Origin: an uncultured Brevundimonas sp.
GTDB lineage: Bacteria; Pseudomonadota; Alphaproteobacteria; Caulobacterales; Caulobacteraceae
DNA: 36,949 bases
NCBI RefSeq assembly: GCF_937863155.1
Contig: NZ_CALMFB010000064.1
Span: forward strand, 1 to 36,949
Direction: 5' to 3'
Both the position numbers and the translations under genes were made by a program. This document shows, one piece after another, positions 9,835 through 32,582 of this stretch (the stretch's first letter is position 1; every line of letters begins with the position of its first letter). The notes beneath the pieces were generated by a model, which saw nothing but the letters and a program-made list of their open reading frames with translations, was not told where the DNA came from and did no database searches.

Positions 9835-10904
9835 GGTTTCGGCTTGCGGCGACTGGGCTTGGGCAGGGCCTCGGACTGTTTCCGAAGGTCTGCATACTCC
9901 TGATCCACACGAGCCTTTTCGGCGGCTTTTCGTCGTTGGTCGAAAAGCTTGTAGTGGCGACGCGCCTCGTGATCCGCGCGATCCTTGCTCACTTCGCCGC
10001 CGTGGGTCAGGGGGATGCGATTCAACTGGCGCAACTGTCGGTCCAGCAGAATCTCCGCCTCAGCCATCGTGGTCAGCCGCCCGATCTCCAGCTGATCCTC
10101 GAAAATCGACAACAGAATGTCGGTCAGGCGGTTAAGCTCCTTGATCTCCGGCGGCCTCAAATAATTTTTGGCGATCGTCACATCCGCAGACTTCACCGCG
10201 TCACCCGACCAGACCTGTAGGCCCATGTTGTCCTGTCCGGCGTCGGCGCGTGAAATGATGACCTGGGCCGGCGTGAGGTTCGTCACCGCGTAGCAGAGCT
10301 TGGCCTGGGTGTTCCGGTAGAACTCGCGCCACCGTTCAGATTTGGGATCATAGTCCTGGCAGAAGGCGCATATCTGACGGATTTCAGCATAGACGTTCGC
10401 TTCCGAACTGCGGATGTCGCGGATGATCTCGCGCAGTTCGGCGATGCGATCCTGTTCGCCGCCCGACTTGAGCCGCTCGGTATCGACGACAAAGCCCTTG
10501 GTGGCGAACCGGACCAGCACCGCCGTCGCCCATCGCCGAAACAGGGTCGCCTGTGCGGAACTCACCCGGTAACCGACCGAGATCACCATATCGAGGCTGT
10601 AGGCGGTGACGCTGCGTCCGGCCGGCCCCTTAATTTGCAAAAAATGCAAATCGGGGATGCCCTCGAGCTCACCTTCCTGAAGGATCGCTGCGATGTGGCG
10701 CGACACGACCGAGACGTCCCGGCCGAACATCTGCGCGATCTGGGCCTGGGTCATCCATAACGCCTCGCCGTCGAATTTCAGCTCGGCGCGGACCCCTGCC
10801 GCCGTGCTGTAGATCAGGAAGCGATCTCCGGTGTCGCCATCTTCATAGACGCGCACCGGTTCGACGCCGGACAGGTCGGTGATGGAATCATCGTCGTCAT
10901 TCAT
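9831..10904 (-). CDS. RhuM family protein (probably acquired)
   Basis: A 357-residue protein from the ATG at 10902-10904. The N-terminal half has the RhuM hallmark order: FDGEALWMTQAQIAQMFGRD (about residues 43-62, an HTH-like segment), then SVVSRHI and the SLDMVISVGYRVSS segment. The second half carries FYRNTQAKLCYAVT and NMGLQVWSGDAVKSADVTIAKNYL and a lysine/arginine-rich coiled tail. The family is named after a Salmonella pathogenicity-island gene and is common in genomic islands; its biochemical role is not established. Its codon use is visibly more AT-tolerant than its neighbours (for example the AT-rich stretch near 10160), and it interrupts the rsmB-rpe pair, so recent acquisition is likely. 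Confidence 0.85.
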   Translation of the reverse strand: MNDDDDSITDLSGVEPVRVYEDGDTGDRFLIYSTAAGVRAELKFDGEALWMTQAQIAQMFGRDVSVVSRHIAAILQEGELEGIPDLHFLQIKGPAGRSVTAYSLDMVISVGYRVSSAQATLFRRWATAVLVRFATKGFVVDTERLKSGGEQDRIAELREIIRDIRSSEANVYAEIRQICAFCQDYDPKSERWREFYRNTQAKLCYAVTNLTPAQVIISRADAGQDNMGLQVWSGDAVKSADVTIAKNYLRPPEIKELNRLTDILLSIFEDQLEIGRLTTMAEAEILLDRQLRQLNRIPLTHGGEVSKDRADHEARRHYKLFDQRRKAAEKARVDQEYADLRKQSEALPKPSRRKPKP

Positions 10905-17656: not shown

Positions 17657-17817
17657 GGGGCGTCCAGGGGCTGCGAGAGGGCCGAGCGTCGCCTTCAGGA
17701 TTAGGCGCCCGTCTCGCCCGACGCAAGGCGCGGCGTTGCGGCGTGACGCCGCCCCGTGCTAGTCGCCACGCCTCGTTTCACCGCGCCCTCCGGCCGAACA
17801 CAGCCCAAAGTTCCGAC

Positions 17818-18345
17818 ATGACCGACGCCACGCCGCCCGCCAATCCGCCCGCCGACACCCCGCCCGCCGGCGCGCCCGAACAGGGCCAGCCGGCCGGTCC
17901 GGGCTTCCGTATCCTGGCCCAATACGTCCGGGACCTGTCGTTCGAGAACCCGCGCGCGCCCGAAAGCCTGCGTCTGGAAGGCAAGCCCCAGATCGACATG
18001 GGTGTCGAAATGGGCGCGCAAGGGCGGCCCGACGGCCTGTTCGAAGTCGACCTGAAGATGTCGGTCAAATCGACCAGCGAAGACGGCAAGCCGGTCTTCC
18101 AGGTCGAGCTGGTCTATGGCGGCCTGTTCGCCCTGTCGGGCGTGTCCGAACAGGACATCGAGCCGATGCTGCTGATCGAATGCCCGCGCTATCTGTTCCC
18201 CTACGCCCGCGAAGTGATCTCGCGCGCCACGGGCGACGGCGGCTTCTATCCGCCCTTCCTGATCGACCCGATCGACTTCGCCGCCATCTATATGTCGCGC
18301 CAGGAGCAGATCGCCCGCAGCCCGGCCGAGCCCGGTCAGGCCTGA
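17818..18345 (+). CDS. secB: Protein-export chaperone SecB
   Basis: From ATG 17818 the protein has 175 residues; an upstream start would add 25 unconserved residues. After a proline/alanine-rich N-terminal tail (residues 1-28) comes the SecB core with [19 protein letters not shown], the DLKMSV and [13 protein letters not shown] strands, [17 protein letters not shown] and the conserved [14 protein letters not shown] near the C-terminus. SecB tetramers hold preproteins unfolded and hand them to SecA. It is transcribed alone and overlaps the convergent dnaQ by 10 bases. Confidence 0.95.
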
Positions 18346-19700: not shown

Positions 19701-20506
19701 GGCGCCTCTCCCAGGATGGACAGCGCCCGCGCCCGCACGTCCACGGCGGGCGGCGGTTCGACCCCGAACAGGGCGCGGAACGACGGTCGCGCCTGGCCGA
19801 TCAGCATGGCCAGGCCGTCCACCGTCGGCAGGCCCCGCGCCTGCGCCGCCGCCAACAGGGGCGTGACCAGCGGCCGATAGGTCATGTCCATGACCACCGT
19901 CCCGGTCTCCAGCGGGCCCACATCCAGATCGGGCGGGGCGCTGAGGGCGTTGACGACCAGAACCGCATCGCCGAACGCCTCGGGGCTGCGGCTGACGATC
20001 ACCGCCGGGCCAATGTCGGCGGCCAGGCGTTCGGCGCGCTGGGCCGTGCGGTTGACGATGCGCACCGCCGCCCCGGCCTGGGCCAGGGCATGGGCCGCCG
20101 CTCGCGCCGCGCCCCCGGCCCCCAGGATCACCACCGCCTGACCTAGGACGCTGAGGCCCGGCGCCTGTTCGGCCAGAGCCAGCATCAGCCCTTCGCCGTC
20201 CGTGCTGTCGGCCTGGATGCGGCCGTCGCGGAACAGCAGCAGATTGGCCGCCCCGACGGCCCTGGCCGTCTCGGTCGCCTGATCGGCGGCGGCCAGGGCG
20301 GCTTCCTTATAAGGCGCGGTCACATTCAGTCCGGCCAGGGCGCCGGACCGGCCCTGTCGCAGCAGGTCCACGAACGCGTCTTCATCGACGGGTTCATGGG
20401 CGCCGTAGTGGGCGTCCAGACCGGCGGCCTCGATCCAGGCGCCGTGGATCGCCGGGCTGAGGGAATGGCCGATCGGACGGCCCGCGACGCCGGCCCGGAT
20501 CGTCAT
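19697..20506 (-). CDS. aroE: Shikimate dehydrogenase
   Basis: From the ATG at 20504-20506, overlapping the maf stop as ATGA, this gives 269 residues. The shikimate site shows [12 protein letters not shown] (about 12-23) and [11 protein letters not shown] with the catalytic lysine (about residue 70); the NADP-binding fold shows [13 protein letters not shown] (about 128-140) and [11 protein letters not shown]. It reduces 3-dehydroshikimate in aromatic amino-acid synthesis. The YKEAA variant of the usual HKE motif is common in alphaproteobacteria. Confidence 0.93.
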
Positions 20507-21099
20507 GCCGCGATCACCCCGTGACGACGCAGCTGGTCCAGCACTGTCCACAGCGGCAGGCCCAGGACGGTGAAATAGTCGCCGTCGATCCGGTCGAACA
20601 GCTGCGACCCCAGACCTTCCAGCCTGTACGAACCGACACAGGCCAGCAGCGCGGTCCCTTCAGCCGCCAGATAGGCGTCCAGGAAGCCGTCGCTGAAATC
20701 GCGCACCTGCATGGTCGCCGTATCGACGCCGGACCACAGCACCCGGCCGTCCCGCGCCAGGGCGGCGCCCGAGTGCAGCTGATGCGGCCGCCCCCGCATG
20801 GCGGACAGACGCGCGCGCGCGGCGCCCAGATCCGGCGCTTTTGAGATCAGGGCGCCGTCGAAGGCCAGGGTCTGGTCCCCGCCCAGCACCCAGGCGCCGG
20901 GTGTCCGCTCGGACACCGCCAGGGCCTTGGCGGCCGCCAGTTCCTGCGCCAGTTCTGCCGCGCGGGCGGCGTCGAACCGGGCCTTGACCGCGCCCTCGTC
21001 CACATCGGCGACCTGCACCTGAAACGCCACGCCGGCGTTTTCCAGCATGGCGCGGCGGGCGGCGCTGGCCGAGGCCAGAATCAGCGGGGCGTGGGTCAC
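20503..21099 (-). CDS. maf: Maf family nucleotide pyrophosphatase
   Basis: A 198-residue Maf/HAM1-fold protein: LILASASAARRAMLENAG at the N-terminus, DEGAVKARF, the WVLGGDQTLAFDG motif with the expected catalytic aspartate (about residue 73) and IDGDYFTVLGLPL near the C-terminus. Family members hydrolyse non-canonical or modified NTPs and some affect septation. The start is GTG (21097-21099), overlapping the ppsR stop as GTGA. Substrate subclass cannot be read from sequence with certainty. Confidence 0.9.
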   Translation of the reverse strand: MTHAPLILASASAARRAMLENAGVAFQVQVADVDEGAVKARFDAARAAELAQELAAAKALAVSERTPGAWVLGGDQTLAFDGALISKAPDLGAARARLSAMRGRPHQLHSGAALARDGRVLWSGVDTATMQVRDFSDGFLDAYLAAEGTALLACVGSYRLEGLGSQLFDRIDGDYFTVLGLPLWTVLDQLRRHGVIAA

Positions 21100-21986
21100 C
21101 AGTGGCTGGCCAGTCTGCGGCTGCGGCGCTCGCTCAACAGGTTGATGATGGCCGCGGCCGTCTCCTCGACCGAGCGGCGGGTCACGTCGATGACCGGCCA
21201 GCCGCGCCGCTCGAAGGCCCGGCGCGCCTTGACCGTCTCGTCGCGCACGGCGTCATGGTCGACATAGCTGGAGGCGCGGCTGGCGTTCAGCCCGTCCAGG
21301 CGGTTGCGGCGGATCTGGACCAGACGGTCCGGCGACACGGTCAGGCCGACCACCAGCGGGTTTTTCAGCGCCGTCAGACGTTCGCCGTCCTCCTGGCCCG
21401 GCACCAGGGGGACATTGGCCGCCCGGATGCCCCGGTGGGCCAGATAGATGCAGGTCGGGGTCTTGGAGGTGCGGCTGACCCCGCACAGCACCACATCGGC
21501 GGCCTCCAGATCCTGGGTCGCGCCCTGGCCGTCGTCGTGGGCCATGGCGAAGTCCAGGGCCGCGATCCGCTCGAAATAGTCGTGGTCCAGGGCATGCTGG
21601 GCGCCGACGCGCGTGGACAGGGCCGCGCCCAGATAGCGCGACAGGGCGCCGACCAGCGGGTCCAGCGCCCCGATCTGGGGCATGTCCAGACGCCGGCAGC
21701 CTTCCTCCAGCTGTTCGCGCAGATCGCGGTCGACAATGGTGTGCAGGACCACGCCGGGGGCGGCGGCCACCTCTTCCAGCACCCGCTCCATCTGCTTGTC
21801 CGACCGGACCAGGGCGTAGATGTGCTCGATGGGGATGACGCCGTCGAACCGGGCCGTCACCGCCTTGGCCATGGCGTTCAGGGTCTCGCCGGTGGAATCC
21901 GACACCAGATGGACGTGGAAATAGGTCGCCAGCCGCGCGGGTCCGGGACGGGCGGGGCCGGGACGATTGGGGTTGGCGGGCGTCAT
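21096..21986 (-). CDS. ppsR: Kinase/pyrophosphorylase of the PPDK-regulatory (DUF299) family
   Basis: A 296-residue protein with the DUF299 landmarks: FHVHLVSDSTGETLNAMAKA (about residues 23-42), a P-loop-like GVSRTSKT (169-176), YLAHRG and NVPLVPG. The family phosphorylates and dephosphorylates pyruvate phosphate dikinase or PEP synthase. The N-terminal 20 residues (PNRPGPARPGPAR) are a basic low-complexity extension. The gene borders the proposed origin and is transcribed away from it. In Caulobacter and Rickettsia the homologous gene (RP001) sits at the same side of the origin. Confidence 0.9.
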   Translation of the reverse strand: MTPANPNRPGPARPGPARLATYFHVHLVSDSTGETLNAMAKAVTARFDGVIPIEHIYALVRSDKQMERVLEEVAAAPGVVLHTIVDRDLREQLEEGCRRLDMPQIGALDPLVGALSRYLGAALSTRVGAQHALDHDYFERIAALDFAMAHDDGQGATQDLEAADVVLCGVSRTSKTPTCIYLAHRGIRAANVPLVPGQEDGERLTALKNPLVVGLTVSPDRLVQIRRNRLDGLNASRASSYVDHDAVRDETVKARRAFERRGWPVIDVTRRSVEETAAAIINLLSERRSRRLASHW

Positions 21987-22004
21987 GCGGGGATGGGCCG
22001 ATCC

Positions 22005-22013
22005 TGTGGATGG
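22005..22013 (-). promoter_or_regulatory. DnaA-box-like site
   Basis: The minus strand reads CCATCCACA, matching seven of nine positions of both TTATCCACA and the Caulobacter G-box TGATCCACA, with the ATCCACA core intact. Confidence 0.45.
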
Positions 22014-22020
22014 TCTGTGA

Positions 22021-22035
22021 GAAGCGGATCGCTTC
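22021..22035. repeat. Small palindrome inside origin region
   Basis: GAAGCG and CGCTTC flank a GAT spacer, a perfect 6-bp inverted repeat between two DnaA-box-like sites. Function unknown; could be chance. Confidence 0.35.
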
Positions 22036-22079
22036 CCTGGGCGCCGATCAGCATAGCGACAGGCAGGGCGGCTCGCGAG

Positions 22080-22088
22080 TGTGGATCG
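22080..22088 (-). promoter_or_regulatory. DnaA box (G-box type)
   Basis: The minus strand reads CGATCCACA, one mismatch from the Caulobacter G-box TGATCCACA. It is the best DnaA-box match in the region. Confidence 0.6.
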
Positions 22089-22164
22089 GGCGGGAAGATC
22101 GGCCCGGTTCGACCCCCGTTCATCCCCCGGCCCAAAAGCCGGCCAATCTCGGCTGGGGAGAAGG

Positions 22165-22179
22165 TTAACGAAACCCTAA
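22165..22179. promoter_or_regulatory. Imperfect CtrA box
   Basis: TTAA-CGAAACC-CTAA matches seven of the eight fixed positions of the CtrA recognition pattern TTAA-N7-TTAA. It lies 53 bases before the perfect box. Confidence 0.55.
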
Positions 22180-22217
22180 CGGCGCCCAGGCGGCGAGGAG
22201 GCTGGGACGGCGGCGGA

Positions 22218-22232
22218 TTAAGACTTTCTTAA
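22218..22232. promoter_or_regulatory. CtrA box
   Basis: TTAA-GACTTTC-TTAA is a perfect match to the CtrA binding pattern TTAA-N7-TTAA. In Caulobacter such boxes in Cori let phosphorylated CtrA block initiation. Three bases separate it from a DnaA-box-like site. Confidence 0.7.
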
Positions 22233-22235
22233 CGC

Positions 22236-22244
22236 TTATCCCCG
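22236..22244 (+). promoter_or_regulatory. Weak DnaA-box-like site next to CtrA box
   Basis: TTATCCCCG matches seven of nine positions of TTATCCACA, including the TTATCC start, directly downstream of the CtrA box. Confidence 0.4.
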
Positions 22245-22289
22245 GTTTCGACAGGCGTCATGATGACCGTTCCATGACAGGGCGCATCC

Positions 22290-22298
22290 TGTGCAGAA
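22290..22298 (-). promoter_or_regulatory. Weak DnaA-box-like site
   Basis: The minus strand reads TTCTGCACA, seven of nine matches to TTATCCACA. Low specificity. Confidence 0.3.
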
Positions 22299-22310
22299 CG
22301 CCGTCGGGCC

Positions 22311-22319
22311 TCTGGATCA
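22311..22319 (-). promoter_or_regulatory. DnaA box (G-box type)
   Basis: The minus strand reads TGATCCAGA, one mismatch from the Caulobacter G-box TGATCCACA. It lies about 40 bases from the AT-rich tract. Confidence 0.5.
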
Positions 22320-22360
22320 GGCCCCAGTTCTCCCCGCCGTCCCGCGCCCTACCGACTACT

Positions 22361-22400
22361 TCCATCTCTCTTTTCTTCTTTGATCTGAAATAGGGATTGA
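22361..22400. other. AT-rich tract, candidate DNA unwinding element
   Basis: Counting bases gives 26 A/T of 40, including a pyrimidine run TTTTCTTCTTT, against a window background well above 60% GC. It lies beside the DnaA-box-like sites, where an unwinding element would be expected; it may also serve the hemE promoter. Confidence 0.45.
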
Positions 22401-22432
22401 GCCATGCGGCCGGGGACCGTATCAGCCGGGCG

Positions 22433-23467
22433 ATGAGCACGCCTGACCTGATCCGCGTTCTGAACGGCGAGACGATGGCCCGGCCGCCGGTGTGGTTCAT
22501 GCGTCAGGCCGGGCGTTACCTGCCCGAATACCGCGCCCTGCGCGCCCAGGCGCCGGACTTCATCGCCTTCTGCCTGAACCCCGAGATGGCGGCCGAGGCG
22601 ACCCTGCAGCCCATGCGGCGGTTCCCCTTCGATGCGGCCATCGTCTTCGCCGACATCCTGTTGATCCCCGGCGCCCTGGGTCAGAAGGTCTGGTTCGAGG
22701 CGGGGGAGGGGCCGCGTCTGGGCGCCCTGCCGGAGATCGCCGCCATGCGCGACCGGGCGCCAGCCGCCGGCCAGGCGCTGAAGGCCGTGGGCGAGACCCT
22801 GTCGATCGTCCGGGCGGCGCTGGAGCCGGAACGGGCGCTGATCGGCTTTGCAGGCGCGCCCTGGACGGTGGCCACCTATATGCTGGACGGCGAGGCTCGC
22901 ACGATCGGCAAGGGCGAGCGGGCGCAGGCGCGCACCTATGCCTATGCCGAACCCGACAAGGTCGCGGCCCTGCTGGAGGTGCTGGTCGAGGCGACGGCCC
23001 ATTATCTGAAGATGCAGCAGGACGCCGGCGCCCAGGTGCTGAAGATCTTCGAGAGCTGGGCCGAGGGCCTGCCGGACGATCTGTTCCACAGTCTGGTCCT
23101 GGCCCCGCATCAGGCCCTGGTGCGCCGCGCGCGAGAACTGGGCGTCACCGTGCCCATCATCGGCTTCCCGCGCGGCTCGGCCGCCCTGGCCGAACACTAT
23201 GCGGCCCAGGCGGGGGTGCAGGGCGTGGCGCTGGACACCGCCTGTCCGCTGGAGGTTGGCCGCCGGGTCCAGGCGATCCGGCCGATCCAGGGGGCGCTGG
23301 ATCCTCTACTGCTGCGCGCGGGCGGACCGATGCTGGACCGGCGCATCGATCAGCTGATGGCGGCCTGGAACGACGGGCCGTGGATCTTCAACCTGGGTCA
23401 CGGCATCCTGCCGGACGTGCCCATCGCCCATGTCGAACAGGCGCTGAAGCGGATCGGGGCGGGATGA
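22433..23467 (+). CDS. hemE: Uroporphyrinogen decarboxylase
   Basis: From ATG 22433 the protein has 344 residues; a TTG 36 bases upstream would add twelve unconserved residues. The family N-terminal signature RPPVWFMRQAGRYLPEYR (18-35) and the second motif GFAGAPWTVATYML (about 138-151) are present, together with the invariant FDAAIVFADIL aspartate stretch. It decarboxylates uroporphyrinogen III to coproporphyrinogen III. It borders the origin, and its stop overlaps the hemH start (ATGA), forming a haem operon with hemH and hemJ. Confidence 0.96.
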   Translation: MSTPDLIRVLNGETMARPPVWFMRQAGRYLPEYRALRAQAPDFIAFCLNPEMAAEATLQPMRRFPFDAAIVFADILLIPGALGQKVWFEAGEGPRLGALPEIAAMRDRAPAAGQALKAVGETLSIVRAALEPERALIGFAGAPWTVATYMLDGEARTIGKGERAQARTYAYAEPDKVAALLEVLVEATAHYLKMQQDAGAQVLKIFESWAEGLPDDLFHSLVLAPHQALVRRARELGVTVPIIGFPRGSAALAEHYAAQAGVQGVALDTACPLEVGRRVQAIRPIQGALDPLLLRAGGPMLDRRIDQLMAAWNDGPWIFNLGHGILPDVPIAHVEQALKRIGAG

Positions 23468-24516
23468 CCGGGGCGGTCGGGCAGAGGATCGCCGTCGTCC
23501 TGTTCAACCTGGGCGGGCCGGACGGACCCCAGGCGGTCAAACCCTTTCTGGCCAATCTGTTCAGCGACCCGGCCATCATCGGCCTGCCGGCCCTGGTGCG
23601 GCGGCCCCTGGCGCGGCTGATCGCGGCACGACGGGAAAAGGGCGCCCAGGCCAACTATGCGCTGATGGGCGGCGGCTCGCCCCTGTTGCCCGAAACCCGC
23701 GCCCAGGCGGCGGCCCTGTCGGCGGTGCTGAAACAGGCTCGGCCGGACGACCGGATCGGCGTCTTCATCGCCATGCGCTACTGGAACCCTCTGACCGAAC
23801 AGGCGGCGGCCGAGGTTCAGGCCTTTGCGCCGGATCGGGTCGTCCTGCTGCCGCTTTATCCCCAGTTCTCGACCACCACGACCCAGTCGTCGCTGAAACG
23901 CTGGCGCGAGGTCTATCGCGGGCCGGGCCGGGAACATGCGGTCTGCTGTTATCCGCGCGCCGAAGGCTGGATCGCCGCCCAGGCGGAGGGGGTGAAGGCG
24001 GCCCTGGCCCAGGCGGGCGAGGCGCCCGTGCGGGTGCTGTTCTCGGCTCACGGCGTGCCCGAACGGGTCATCACCGGCCGGGGCGATCCCTATCAGGAAC
24101 AGGTCGAGGCCACGGCCACAGCCATCGCCGTGGCGGCGGGTCTGGTGGACTGGCAGGTCTGTTACCAGAGCCGGGTCGGGCCGTTGAAATGGCTGGGGCC
24201 GTCGACGCCCGAGGCGATCGAACAGGCGGCGGCCGACGGCGTCGGCGTGGTGGTGGCCCCCATCGCCTTCGTGTCCGAACATATCGAGACCCTGGTCGAG
24301 CTGGATATCGAATATGCGGAACTGGCGCACCGGCTGGGCGTGGCGCCCTATCTGCGGGTTCCGGCCGTGGGGGTGACGCCGGTTTTCATCGAGACCCTGA
24401 AACAGGCGGTGATCCAGGCGCTGGACCGCGACGGGGTTTCGCCCCACGGTCCCGGCTGCGAAGGACGATGGGCGGCCTGCCCGGTCCGGGGCAGCTGTCG
24501 CAAGGAGGCGGCGTGA
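23464..24516 (+). CDS. hemH: Ferrochelatase with C-terminal cysteine cluster
   Basis: A 350-residue ferrochelatase starting at ATG 23464. Motifs are FNLGGPD (14-20), LLPLYPQFSTTTTQS, the catalytic histidine in FSAHGVPE (H196) and SEHIETLVELD with the acidic proton-shuttle residue near E272. C332, C339 and C345 in the last 20 residues plus C161/C162 inside the domain are placed as in the [2Fe-2S]-containing ferrochelatases, a type reported from Caulobacter crescentus. It inserts Fe2+ into protoporphyrin IX at the inner membrane. Its stop shares a base with the hemJ ATG (TGATG). Confidence 0.95.
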   Translation: MTGAVGQRIAVVLFNLGGPDGPQAVKPFLANLFSDPAIIGLPALVRRPLARLIAARREKGAQANYALMGGGSPLLPETRAQAAALSAVLKQARPDDRIGVFIAMRYWNPLTEQAAAEVQAFAPDRVVLLPLYPQFSTTTTQSSLKRWREVYRGPGREHAVCCYPRAEGWIAAQAEGVKAALAQAGEAPVRVLFSAHGVPERVITGRGDPYQEQVEATATAIAVAAGLVDWQVCYQSRVGPLKWLGPSTPEAIEQAAADGVGVVVAPIAFVSEHIETLVELDIEYAELAHRLGVAPYLRVPAVGVTPVFIETLKQAVIQALDRDGVSPHGPGCEGRWAACPVRGSCRKEAA

Positions 24517-26722: not shown

Positions 26723-26738
26723 TGTTTCACGTGAAACA
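26723..26738. promoter_or_regulatory. parS centromere site
   Basis: TGTTTCACGTGAAACA, a perfect match to the ParB-binding palindrome, in the rho-DUF6489 intergenic space about 4.3 kb from the origin region. Confidence 0.95.
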
Positions 26739-26762: not shown

Positions 26763-27002
26763 ATGAAGGTCAACGTGGAAGTCGACTGCACCCCGGCAGA
26801 GGCGCGGGCCTTTCTGGGCCTGCCGGATGTGGCGCCGCTGAACGAGGCCATGGTGGCCGAGATGCAGAAGCGGATGCAGGCCAATGTCGCCGCCATGCAG
26901 CCCGAAGAGCTGATGAAGACCTGGACCAGCTTCGGCCTTCAGGCCCAGGACCAGTTCCGCCGTCTGATGGAATCGGCCGTCACCGGCGTCGGCAAGCCGT
27001 AG
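26763..27002 (+). CDS. Small conserved protein (DUF6489-like)
   Basis: A 79-residue protein starting MKVNVEVDCTPAEARAFLGLPD, with AEMQKRMQANVAAMQPEELMKTW in the middle and FRRLMESAVTG at the end. It has no signal peptide or membrane span and appears mostly helical. It resembles the DUF6489 family of alphaproteobacteria, whose function is unknown and which is recurrent beside mnmE. Strong spacing from parS upstream: its start is 25 bases past the site, with AGGAG just ahead of the ATG. Confidence 0.8.
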   Translation: MKVNVEVDCTPAEARAFLGLPDVAPLNEAMVAEMQKRMQANVAAMQPEELMKTWTSFGLQAQDQFRRLMESAVTGVGKP

Positions 27003-28344: not shown

Positions 28345-28360
28345 TGTTTCACGTGAAACA
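28345..28360. promoter_or_regulatory. parS centromere site
   Basis: TGTTTCACGTGAAACA, perfect match, starting one base after the mnmE stop. About 5.9 kb from hemE. Confidence 0.95.
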
Positions 28361-30262: not shown

Positions 30263-30894
30263 TGACCGAAGCCGCCCTTCTGGATGCGGCGGGCTTCCAG
30301 GCCCGCACCGGGGTTTCCGACGCCGTCATGGCCGATCTGGAGACCTTTCGCCAAAGGCTGGAGACGGCCAACGCCCATATGAATCTGGTCGGCCCGGCCA
30401 GCCTGCCCGACTATTGGAACCGGCATGTTCTGGACAGCGCCCAGCTGCTGGATCATGCGCCGGACGCCCTGACCTGGGCTGATCTGGGGGCGGGGGCCGG
30501 GTTTCCCGGCGTGGTTCTGGCCATACTGTTGAAGGGGCGGCCGGACGCCCATGTCTGGCTGATCGATAGCCTGAATAAGCGGTGCAAATTCCTTCAGGCG
30601 GTGGTCGACGAGCTGGCCTTGCCCGCCACGGTGATCTGGGGGCGGGCCGAGGAACAGCGGGTGACGGTGGACATCGTCACCGCCCGCGCGGTGGCGGCGA
30701 TGGAGACCCTGCTGGGTTATGCACAGCCGTGCTTCGATCGTGGTGCACAAGGCCTGTTCCTGAAGGGAGAGAAGGCCGAGGCGGAGTTGACCCAGGCGTG
30801 GAAATCCTGGCGTTTCGAGGCGGAAGTTCTGCCGTCCGTCAGCGACGCGCGGGGCCGTATCGTCAGCATCGGGAATCTGAAACGTGTCCGCTGA
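30262..30894 (+). CDS. rsmG: 16S rRNA (guanine-N7)-methyltransferase RsmG
   Basis: A 210-residue SAM-dependent enzyme methylating G527 of 16S rRNA. The typical YWNRHVLDSAQLL (51-63), the SAM motif DLGAGAGFPGVVLAI (74-88) and TARAVAAMETLL are intact. Loss of this gene gives low-level streptomycin resistance in many bacteria. It is coupled to mnmG upstream (TGATG) and overlaps parA by 11 bases. Confidence 0.94.
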   Translation: MTEAALLDAAGFQARTGVSDAVMADLETFRQRLETANAHMNLVGPASLPDYWNRHVLDSAQLLDHAPDALTWADLGAGAGFPGVVLAILLKGRPDAHVWLIDSLNKRCKFLQAVVDELALPATVIWGRAEEQRVTVDIVTARAVAAMETLLGYAQPCFDRGAQGLFLKGEKAEAELTQAWKSWRFEAEVLPSVSDARGRIVSIGNLKRVR

Positions 30895-31690
30895 ATCCAA
30901 ACCGATGCGGGTGTTGGCCGTGTCGAACCAGAAGGGCGGCGTGGGCAAGACGACCACGGCCATCAATCTGGGCACCGCCCTGGCCGCCATCGGTGAACGG
31001 GTGTTGATCGTCGACATGGACCCCCAGGGCAATGCCTCCACGGGCTTGGGTGTTCCACGTGAAACACGCCGGGTGACCATCTATGATGTGGTGGTGGACG
31101 GCCGCTCCATCGCCGATGCGGCGGTCGAAACGGCCGTACCGGGTCTGTCCATTGTGCCGGCCGACGCCGACATGTCCGGCGTCGAGATCGAGCTGAGCCA
31201 GGCGGACCGGCGTTCGTACCGCCTGCGCGACGCCCTGGCGGCGACGGGCGCCGGTCAGACCGGGTATGACTATGTGCTGATCGACTGTCCGCCGTCGCTG
31301 AACCTGCTGACGCTGAACGCCATGGCGGCGGCCGATGCGGTGCTGGTGCCGCTGCAATGCGAGTTCTTCGCCCTGGAGGGCCTCAGCCAGCTGATGCGGA
31401 CCATCGACATGGTGCGCCAGAGCCTGAACCCCGCGCTGGAGATCCAGGGGCTGGTCCTGACCATGTACGACCGGCGCAACGCCCTGTCGGGCCAGGTCGC
31501 CAACGATGTGCGCAGCCATTTCGGCGACAAGGTCTATGACGCCGTGATCCCGCGCAATGTTCGGGTGTCCGAGGCGCCGTCGTTCGGCAAGCCGGCCCTG
31601 ATCTATGATCTGAAATGCGCGGGCAGCCAGGCCTATCTGCGGCTGGCGCGCGAAGTGGTGGCGCGCGAACGGCTGCGCCGCGCCGCCTGA
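30884..31690 (+). CDS. parA: Chromosome partitioning ATPase ParA
   Basis: A 268-residue ATPase starting at GTG 30884, inside rsmG. It has the deviant Walker A KGGVGKTT (17-24), the A' motif IVDMDPQGNAS (about 45-55), Walker B YVLIDCPPSLNLLT and the LVPLQCEFFALEGLSQL stretch. No N-terminal DNA-binding domain precedes the ATPase, so this is the chromosomal (Ib-like) type. ParA-ATP on the nucleoid pulls ParB-parS complexes apart; a parS site lies inside its own coding sequence. Confidence 0.96.
   Translation: MSAESKPMRVLAVSNQKGGVGKTTTAINLGTALAAIGERVLIVDMDPQGNASTGLGVPRETRRVTIYDVVVDGRSIADAAVETAVPGLSIVPADADMSGVEIELSQADRRSYRLRDALAATGAGQTGYDYVLIDCPPSLNLLTLNAMAAADAVLVPLQCEFFALEGLSQLMRTIDMVRQSLNPALEIQGLVLTMYDRRNALSGQVANDVRSHFGDKVYDAVIPRNVRVSEAPSFGKPALIYDLKCAGSQAYLRLAREVVARERLRRAA
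31051..31066. promoter_or_regulatory. parS-like site inside parA
   Basis: TGTTCCACGTGAAACA, one mismatch from the parS palindrome TGTTTCACGTGAAACA. It lies in the parA reading frame and is about 8.6 kb from hemE. Confidence 0.88.
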
Positions 31691-31703
31691 ATGAAACGGA
31701 ATC

Positions 31704-32582
31704 ATGCAAGTGTCTGAACGTCAAAGAGGTCTGGGGCGCGGTCTGTCGGCCCTGCTGGGCGAGCCGGTGGCGGCCGAGGGTGGGGCAGTGGCCCCGGCGG
31801 GCGTGCAGACGGTTCCGATCGAGAGCCTGAAACCCAACCCCGACCAGCCGCGCAAGGTTTTCGCCCGCGAGGAGCTGGAGGAGCTGACCGCCTCGATCCG
31901 CGACAAGGGGGTGCTGCAGCCCATCCTGGTCCGGCCCCAGCCGGGCGAGGACGGCGTCTGGCAGATCATCGCCGGCGAACGCCGCTGGCGGGCCGCCCAA
32001 GGCGCGCGTCTGACCAGCGTACCGATCGTGGTGCGCGAGATGGACGACCGCGAGGTTCTGGAGGTCGCCATCATCGAGAATGTCCAGCGCGCCGACCTGA
32101 ATCCGGTCGAGGAGGCCCAGGCCTATGGCCTGCTGATGGAACGGTTCGGCCGCACCCAGGACGCCCTGGCCGGGGTGGTGGGCAAGAGCCGCAGTCACGT
32201 GGCCAACACCCTGCGCCTGTTGCAATTGCCGGACGATGTGCTGGAGCATGTGTCGCAGGGCCGGCTGTCGGCCGGTCACGCCCGCGCCCTGATCACGGCG
32301 CGCGATCCGTCCGCTCTGGCCGAGGCGGTGCTGAAGGACGGGCTGAATGTGCGCCAGGCCGAGGCCCTGGCCCGGCGGTCGGCCGAAGGTCCGAAAACCG
32401 CCAAGACCACGGCGGTCCGGCCCGAAGGCGACGCCGACATCGCGGCCCTGGAGCAGGATCTGTCCGACGCCCTGGGCCTGCGGGTCGCCCTGACCGACCG
32501 GGGCGGCAAGGGCGAACTGAACATCGTCTATTCCAGTCTGGAACAGCTGGACGACCTGTGCCGCCGGCTGATGCGGGGCTGA
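31704..32582 (+). CDS. parB: Chromosome partitioning protein ParB
   Basis: A 292-residue CTPase and DNA-binding protein. The basic N-terminal [11 protein letters not shown] motif that stimulates ParA is at residues 9-19. The CTP-binding box GERRWRA (91-97) and ENVQR (125-129) are intact, the helix-turn-helix is at about 152-175 ([12 protein letters not shown]) and the dimerisation domain closes the protein. It loads at parS, spreads and is expected to interact with MipZ and PopZ in this group. It follows parA after 13 bases. Confidence 0.96.

Follow-up and report, generated by a model that had tools for sequence, protein, structure and literature searches.

The intergenic gap at positions 21987–22432 of a contig from an uncultured Brevundimonas species is very probably where the Brevundimonas chromosome starts replicating. 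It very probably both works like, and is, a Caulobacter-type origin, in which the features that define Cori, the origin of Caulobacter crescentus, are partly present. The explanation that best covers the observations as a whole, and in which we have high confidence, is an origin homologous in place to Cori, served by DnaA at weak sites and repressible by CtrA. The window, that is, the whole stretch of DNA that was analysed, is an entire contig (C64) of 36,949 bases from a 2.79-Mb genome that is 99.6% complete in 77 contigs. A sequence-only reading had placed a candidate origin between ppsR and hemE, and this proposal is now supported by position, motifs, an AT-rich tract, synteny, nearby parS-like sites and parAB, and the GC skew of some complete relatives. 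That reading had not mentioned the TCCCC-type sites as a class, the two GGCGCC palindromes or the three parS-like sites.

Features of Cori were drawn from several sources (PMC4468827, PMC4285127, PMC8959179, PMC1914354), and by analogy with C. crescentus a mechanism of binding, unwinding and repression can be proposed for the gap. DnaA would bind mostly to weak, W-box-like TCCCC sites, together with one or two TCCACA-type sites, and would open the AT-rich tract beside hemE. CtrA~P on two boxes, each 2–3 bases from a W-box-like site, would keep DnaA off, and removal of CtrA would lift this block. Steric exclusion of DnaA by CtrA has been proposed in C. crescentus (PMC4468827).

Gene neighbourhood

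The gap separates a divergent pair, a ppsR-type gene on the minus strand and hemE on the plus strand (Table 1). This context had been likened to the location of Cori, and profile matches to both border genes bear out the comparison: Cori is likewise flanked by hemE and, on its left, by a COG1806/DUF299 gene. Further to the left, maf-like and aroE-like genes (both slightly below curated cut-offs), coaE and a dnaQ-type exonuclease gene all lie on the minus strand, and the genes to the right include rho, mnmE, gidA, rsmG, parA and parB on the plus strand. The suggestion that genes are mostly transcribed outward from the gap holds in the main, with an exception in secB (17743–18345), which lies on the left side on the plus strand. 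The interval between rho and mnmE was considered as a second gap of more than 300 bases and dropped; a small DUF6489 gene (26763–27002) fills the space and adjoins a parS-like site. With this one other candidate gone, nothing observed speaks against the earlier remark that the gap is the only one longer than 300 bases.

Table 1. Features of the candidate origin and its surroundings (window coordinates)
Feature	Position	Strand	Basis
ppsR-type kinase/pyrophosphorylase gene, DUF299/COG1806	21096..21986	-	PF03618, E 3.3e-86; NF003742 over cut-off
DnaA-type site CCATCCACA, two mismatches to TGATCCACA	22005..22013	-	TGTnG core in at least 90% of 15 aligned gaps
GGCGCC palindrome, left conserved copy	22040..22045		Alignment, counts
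CATAGC, conserved	22052..22057	-	Alignment
G-box-like CGATCCACA, one mismatch to TGATCCACA	22080..22088	-	Scan, alignment
W-box-like TTCTCCCCA, 2 bases left of CtrA box 1	22154..22162	-	Scan, alignment
CtrA box 1, TTAACGAAACCCTAA, one mismatch	22165..22179		TTAA-N7-TTAA scan
GGCGCC palindrome, right conserved copy, adjoins CtrA box 1	22181..22186		Alignment, counts
CtrA box 2, TTAAGACTTTCTTAA, perfect	22218..22232		TTAA-N7-TTAA scan
W-box-like TTATCCCCG, 3 bases right of CtrA box 2	22236..22244	+	Scan, alignment
G-box-like TGATCCAGA, one mismatch to TGATCCACA	22311..22319	-	Not conserved in aligned relatives
W-box-like TTCTCCCCG	22328..22336	+	Position conserved in alignment
AT-rich tract	22353..22400		Holds the window's only 40-mers with at least 65% AT
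hemE, right border	22433..23467	+	TIGR01464 over cut-off; PF01208
parS-like site, exact match to the search consensus	26723..26738		Motif scan
parS-like site, no mismatch	28345..28360		Motif scan
parA-parB, chromosome partition genes	30884..32582	+	Profile matches
parS-like site, one mismatch	31051..31066		Motif scan

Within the named collection, the most similar HemE (94% identity) comes from a draft genome of a Brevundimonas sp., followed by named Brevundimonas records. The divergent ppsR–hemE arrangement occurs in 57 of 80 HemE loci overall and in all 30 loci in which HemE is at least 62% identical (L003–L032). Within the genus, 121 genomes were searched and all but two gave a HemE hit; loci were fetched for all but nine of these, and the resulting 110 genomes, our own included, all keep the pair. 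In 22 of these 110 gaps the hemE end was set from the place of the search hit. A contig filed as Bordetella sp. (L005, JAFKFS010000033.1) also carries a Brevundimonas-like hemE–ppsR locus, with 86% HemE identity; this record is probably misnamed or contaminated.

A consensus search of the window found three parS-like sites against 0.01 expected. They are spread over about 4.3 kb around mnmE-gidA-parA, 4–9 kb from the origin, and together with parAB they lie 4–10 kb from the gap. In Caulobacter, parS and parAB are near Cori as well. The genome also encodes dnaA, one ctrA (416 bits; curated cut-off 350), gcrA and a RAMA-domain ccrM candidate.

DnaA-type sites

Several DnaA-like boxes had been read in the gap, two of them one mismatch from the G-box TGATCCACA, and a scan finds both (22080 and 22311). 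At this threshold two sites stand against 0.07 expected, and two of 200 shuffles reach that number. The idea that they are the key DnaA sites was nevertheless abandoned: in an alignment of our gap with 14 Brevundimonas-type gaps (15 gaps) they are not conserved, whereas the W-box-like TCCCC sites are, and only 21 of the 110 genus gaps have any G-box within one mismatch. At site 22080, which is G-box-like in the window, seven of the 14 aligned relatives carry CGGGGAT, and the corresponding W-box-like GCGAGCGGGGAT is present in 53 of the 110 genus gaps. The exact G-box of Cori is absent from the gap, from 57 relatives and from 109 of the 110 genus gaps, one gap holding an exact copy. The sole exact TGATCCACA of the window lies at 9901–9909, far from the origin.

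The TCCCC motif occurs at least twice in each of the 110 gaps, even where the CtrA boxes are gone. Three copies of TTNTCCCC are found in our gap (0.12 expected; none of 200 shuffles reaches this), and sites within two mismatches of TTATCCACA are located at 22154, 22236 and 22290. The exact weak W-box consensus of Cori, TCCCCA (PMC4285127), occurs once against 0.45 expected, a number reached by 77 of 200 shuffles, and is not enriched. Conservation in the alignment covers TCCTGTGGA near ppsR (TGTnG in at least 90%), CATAGC, CTGGGGA ahead of CtrA box 1, the two CtrA boxes, TTATCCCCG following box 2 and again further to the right, and the AT-rich tract. The leftmost DnaA-type site may also serve the ppsR leader. 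Since the TCCCC sites are conserved and the near G-boxes are not, the DnaA part looks, by its motifs, like the weak W-box class of Cori, mainly in the form TCCCCG, and unlike its G-boxes.

CtrA boxes

One perfect and one imperfect CtrA box had been noticed from the letters, and scanning returns exactly these two, against 0.01 expected in the gap at one mismatch or fewer; none of 200 dinucleotide shuffles reaches two. No further site within one mismatch exists in the whole window (0.16 expected; one of 100 shuffles reaches two), and the perfect TTAA-N7-TTAA pattern occurs five times in the 2.79-Mb genome, compared with two occurrences of a reversed-pattern control. Enrichment extends to the relatives, with 22 boxes within one mismatch in the 14 Brevundimonas-type gaps (0.51 expected) and 38 in 16 other gaps, L013–L029 (0.91 expected). 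Across the genus there are 169 such boxes in 90 of the 110 gaps, and 20 gaps have none. Cori shares this feature with our gap, which holds two boxes, fewer than its five.

Both boxes of the window sit next to W-box-like sites, at distances of 2 and 3 bases. As a general rule, closeness of CtrA boxes to TCCCC was rejected: 80 of the 169 boxes lie within 10 bases of TCCCC, slightly above the 39% obtained at random. In 48 of the 169, which are not independent of one another, the start of the nearest TCCCC is exactly 6 bases downstream, a spacing also found at box 2.

Instead of serving repression, the boxes could drive a noncoding RNA like CcnA, leaving DnaA alone to set the timing. Cori is the source of the CcnA transcript, which has CtrA boxes close to its start and also at its end (PMC8959179), weakening the CtrA sites of Cori caused only a mild perturbation in laboratory culture (PMC4468827), and one Brevundimonas clade lives without such boxes. 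Against this stand the position of both boxes, 2–3 bases from DnaA-type sites, and the lack of any Rfam match at E ≤ 1 in 20500–24000, on which ground a noncoding RNA in the gap was set aside. We consider this account unlikely; it is also compatible with repression by CtrA, which we continue to prefer.

AT-rich tract, GANTC and IHF sites

The 65% AT tract of 40 bases that had been described proved exact: 40-mers of this composition start only at 22353–22361 in all 36,949 bases. In sequence it corresponds to the AT-rich region of about 40 bases in Cori, and we regard it as a candidate DNA unwinding element. The remark that GANTC is missing was also correct, with zero copies in the gap. CcrM sites of this kind are present in Cori and are missing here. 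Their absence is unremarkable in number because composition leads to an expectation of 2.5 (shuffles). As a lineage trait it was rejected: 108 of the 110 genus gaps have at least one GANTC, just one other gap shares the absence, and a ccrM candidate is present in the genome. A search of the gap for IHF sites, a further feature of Cori, found no match to WATCAANNNNTTR (up to one mismatch) or to TAACGCTCTGTT (up to three mismatches; from PMC4285127).

GC skew and the place of initiation

As our genome is in 77 contigs, GC skew was followed in complete relatives, sampled in 20-kb stretches. Within the window itself, the running G–C sum reaches its low point at 21033. In G087, where hemE is at 1.113 Mb, the cumulative curve has its minimum in the sample at 1.05–1.07 Mb and climbs from 1.20 Mb onward, although the best two-arc split begins at 1.65 Mb, away from hemE. 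In G070, the minimum lies in the sample at 2.40–2.42 Mb and the best split starts from 2.55 Mb, with hemE at 2.563 Mb. None of 500 shuffles reaches the best split of either genome. These two clear results come from origins without CtrA boxes, because both genomes belong to the clade described below. In Brevundimonas albigilva (G001) the minimum is broad (1.70–2.0 Mb, low at 1.70 and deeper at 1.98), with hemE at 1.737 Mb; its best split is significant (0 of 300 shuffles) but starts at about 2.0–2.1 Mb. The complete, CtrA-bearing genome G054 has no significant split (108 of 300 shuffles), and its lowest sampled point, at 2.69–2.71 Mb, is about 0.05–0.2 Mb from hemE (2.911 Mb).

These data bear on the suggestion that the gap is merely a divergent ppsR/hemE promoter under CtrA control, with the origin at another place such as dnaA. 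The failure of skew in G054 and B. albigilva to pinpoint the locus would suit this, as would the role of CtrA as an activator too in Caulobacter (PMC8959179) and the conserved CATAGC, a candidate −10 element of the ppsR promoter. It accounts poorly for the skew that turns at hemE in G087 and G070, for the three parS-like sites and parAB nearby, and for the TCCCC copies that persist in every gap, including those without CtrA boxes. Furthermore, the place between hemE and COG1806 is that of the experimentally identified origin of C. crescentus (PMC1914354). In B. albigilva, dnaA (C1:1119142) is 0.62 Mb away from hemE and sits on an arm along which the skew mostly falls. In our own genome dnaA is on another contig (C70:192720), outside C64. 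In C. crescentus, dnaA is close to Cori. Taken together, we judge a mere promoter very improbable and retain the gap as the very probable origin.

Relatives without CtrA boxes and the GGCGCC palindrome

A tree based on the 5' portions of ppsR and hemE unites 18 of the 20 gaps without CtrA boxes in one clade (support 99/96), which consists of 15 Brevundimonas diminuta-like members and three sisters (L157, L158, L160–L164, L166–L169, L171, L173, L175, L179, L210, L213 and L241). Even at two mismatches, CtrA-like sites in this clade do not rise above chance (3 against 6.6 expected and 4 against 4.1). The remaining two, L187 and L193, are probably threshold cases, holding together three two-mismatch sites against 0.26 expected. 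Of the 20 genomes, 19 have a ctrA gene and the one without it is 66% complete; a RAMA protein (ccrM candidate) was found in all 20.

The gaps of this clade are rich in other motifs. GANTC occurs 98 times in the 15 diminuta-like gaps (5–9 each; 39.6 expected), eight times in the three sister gaps (6.6 expected) and 224 times in the 90 CtrA-bearing gaps (248 expected); eight gaps outside the 15 also hold 5–6 copies. The palindrome GGCGCC is present at 6–11 copies per gap, giving 123 in the 15 gaps (8.8 expected) and 29 in the three (1.4 expected). The other 92 genus gaps average 2.2 (205 in total; 49.5 expected), with one outlier, L156, at seven. Two copies, as in the window, were dismissed as significant by themselves, since 15 of 200 shuffles reach two; both positions are conserved across the aligned Brevundimonas origins. 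A causal link between CtrA loss and a gain of GANTC or GGCGCC was set aside, as the tree, with 18 of the 20 CtrA-less origins in one clade, gives only two or three independent pairs.

The density of GGCGCC was compared with that of other parts of the genomes. Sampled stretches of two clade members (G087 and G070) contain 2.3–2.6 copies per kb. Elsewhere in these genomes, 526-base windows with at least six copies make up 0.17% in G087 and 0.56% in G070, and those with at least eight were absent from G087 and made up 0.02% in G070. Intergenic-like pieces carry 1.5–2.4 copies per kb; at least five copies are found in none of 104 such pieces in G087 and none of 92 in G054, in one of 98 in G070 (1,506 bases long) and in one of 240 in B. 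albigilva (980 bases long). Among the 64 palindromic hexamers GGCGCC is the commonest in both groups of gaps; when 6-mers are ranked against a fourth-order Markov model built from the gaps, it falls outside the top 22 of either group. Triplets of GGCGCC were rejected as unique to the origin, with 3–53 per strand in 13 genomes searched. The mean is 1.25 in the 16 gaps L013–L029 and 0.11 in 27 more distant gaps, and for this reason the motif looks, from these counts, specific to Brevundimonas.

Several studies have dealt with GGCGCC in other contexts. In Brevundimonas subvibrioides it is predicted to be the m5C target of Bresu_0174, which has a homologue in C. crescentus and is listed with no partner restriction enzyme; the same study detected no methylation of GGCGCC (PMC7987155). 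The motif is methylated in Rhizobium leguminosarum, with methylases encoded beside restriction genes (PMC8709438), and one cyanobacterium carries it as an iterated palindrome across its genome (PMC4390886). Our searches found at least one PF00145 methyltransferase in each of 17 Brevundimonas-genus genomes. The single one of our own genome, on C49, has among the matches listed counterparts of 68–73% identity in at least six other genomes and of 47–52% in others. Hypothetically, GGCGCC could have a role in methylation or binding at the origin.

A wider scenario can be built on these observations, and we hold it as possible but doubtful. GGCGCC would be a functional origin element, read by a partnerless cytosine methyltransferase or by a palindrome-binding protein. 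In the CtrA-less clade it would have multiplied and replaced CtrA as the brake on initiation, with CcrM (GANTC) sites joining later in the diminuta-like members and ctrA being kept; the window would then show the ancestral arrangement, in which CtrA control and two GGCGCC copies stand side by side. On this view, an origin would have passed from two-component control to control of the methylation type without loss of ctrA.

Relation to previous work

Some marine Caulobacter strains are Brevundimonas, and L010 is B. halotolerans MCS24. Shaheen and colleagues (2009) reportedly compared the origins of freshwater and marine Caulobacter, and are said to have described a pairing of CtrA and DnaA sites, as well as IHF and CcrM sites whose conservation does not extend beyond close relatives. 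Since some of the marine strains are Brevundimonas, part of the genus may already be covered by that comparison. Our literature search, which covered titles and abstract openings and included few subscription journals, gave among the matches listed none on the Brevundimonas origin or on a GGCGCC array there.

As of 2007, Cori was the only alphaproteobacterial origin identified by experiment, and CtrA sites had been predicted in the origins of Rickettsia and its kin (PMC1914354). Another paper states that CtrA sites are not seen in origins outside Caulobacter, with Rickettsia a possible exception (PMC4468827). Conserved boxes in 90 of 110 origins of the genus show, at the level of sequence, that such an arrangement is common in a genus next to Caulobacter. 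The clade that has ctrA and no boxes provides a natural experiment on the purpose of CtrA at the origin, with the GGCGCC array as a concrete candidate for its replacement. Loss of CtrA boxes as such has precedent, because origins predicted in a Wolbachia strain and in Ehrlichia ruminantium lack them despite the presence of ctrA (PMC1914354).

Comparison with known origins

The closest likeness is to Cori, with the same gene borders (PMC1914354), CtrA boxes, candidate weak DnaA sites of the TCCCC type and a 40-base AT-rich region. The differences are of number and kind: Cori has two G-boxes, whereas the gap has no exact TGATCCACA, TCCCCG prevails over TCCCCA, and the IHF consensus and GANTC are lacking. 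The two GGCGCC palindromes may be a further difference.

Origins predicted in Rickettsia, Wolbachia, Ehrlichia and Anaplasma share the hemE border, with CtrA and DnaA sites in varying number; CtrA sites range from zero to seven, some of these origins having none although ctrA is present (PMC1914354). They differ in the IHF sites reported there, and the available text mentions no GGCGCC array (PMC1914354).

The CtrA-less Brevundimonas clade shares with the window the locus, the W-box-like sites and both conserved GGCGCC positions. It differs in having no CtrA box, 6–11 GGCGCC and, in 15 of 18 members, 5–9 GANTC, where the window has two, two and zero, respectively. In Escherichia coli, oriC contains a cluster of Dam GATC sites and is served by SeqA. 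Its motifs are different, and both a SeqA-like reader and methylation would be hypothetical in Brevundimonas; the likeness, confined to the CtrA-less relatives, is that target sites of a methyltransferase are clustered in the origin.
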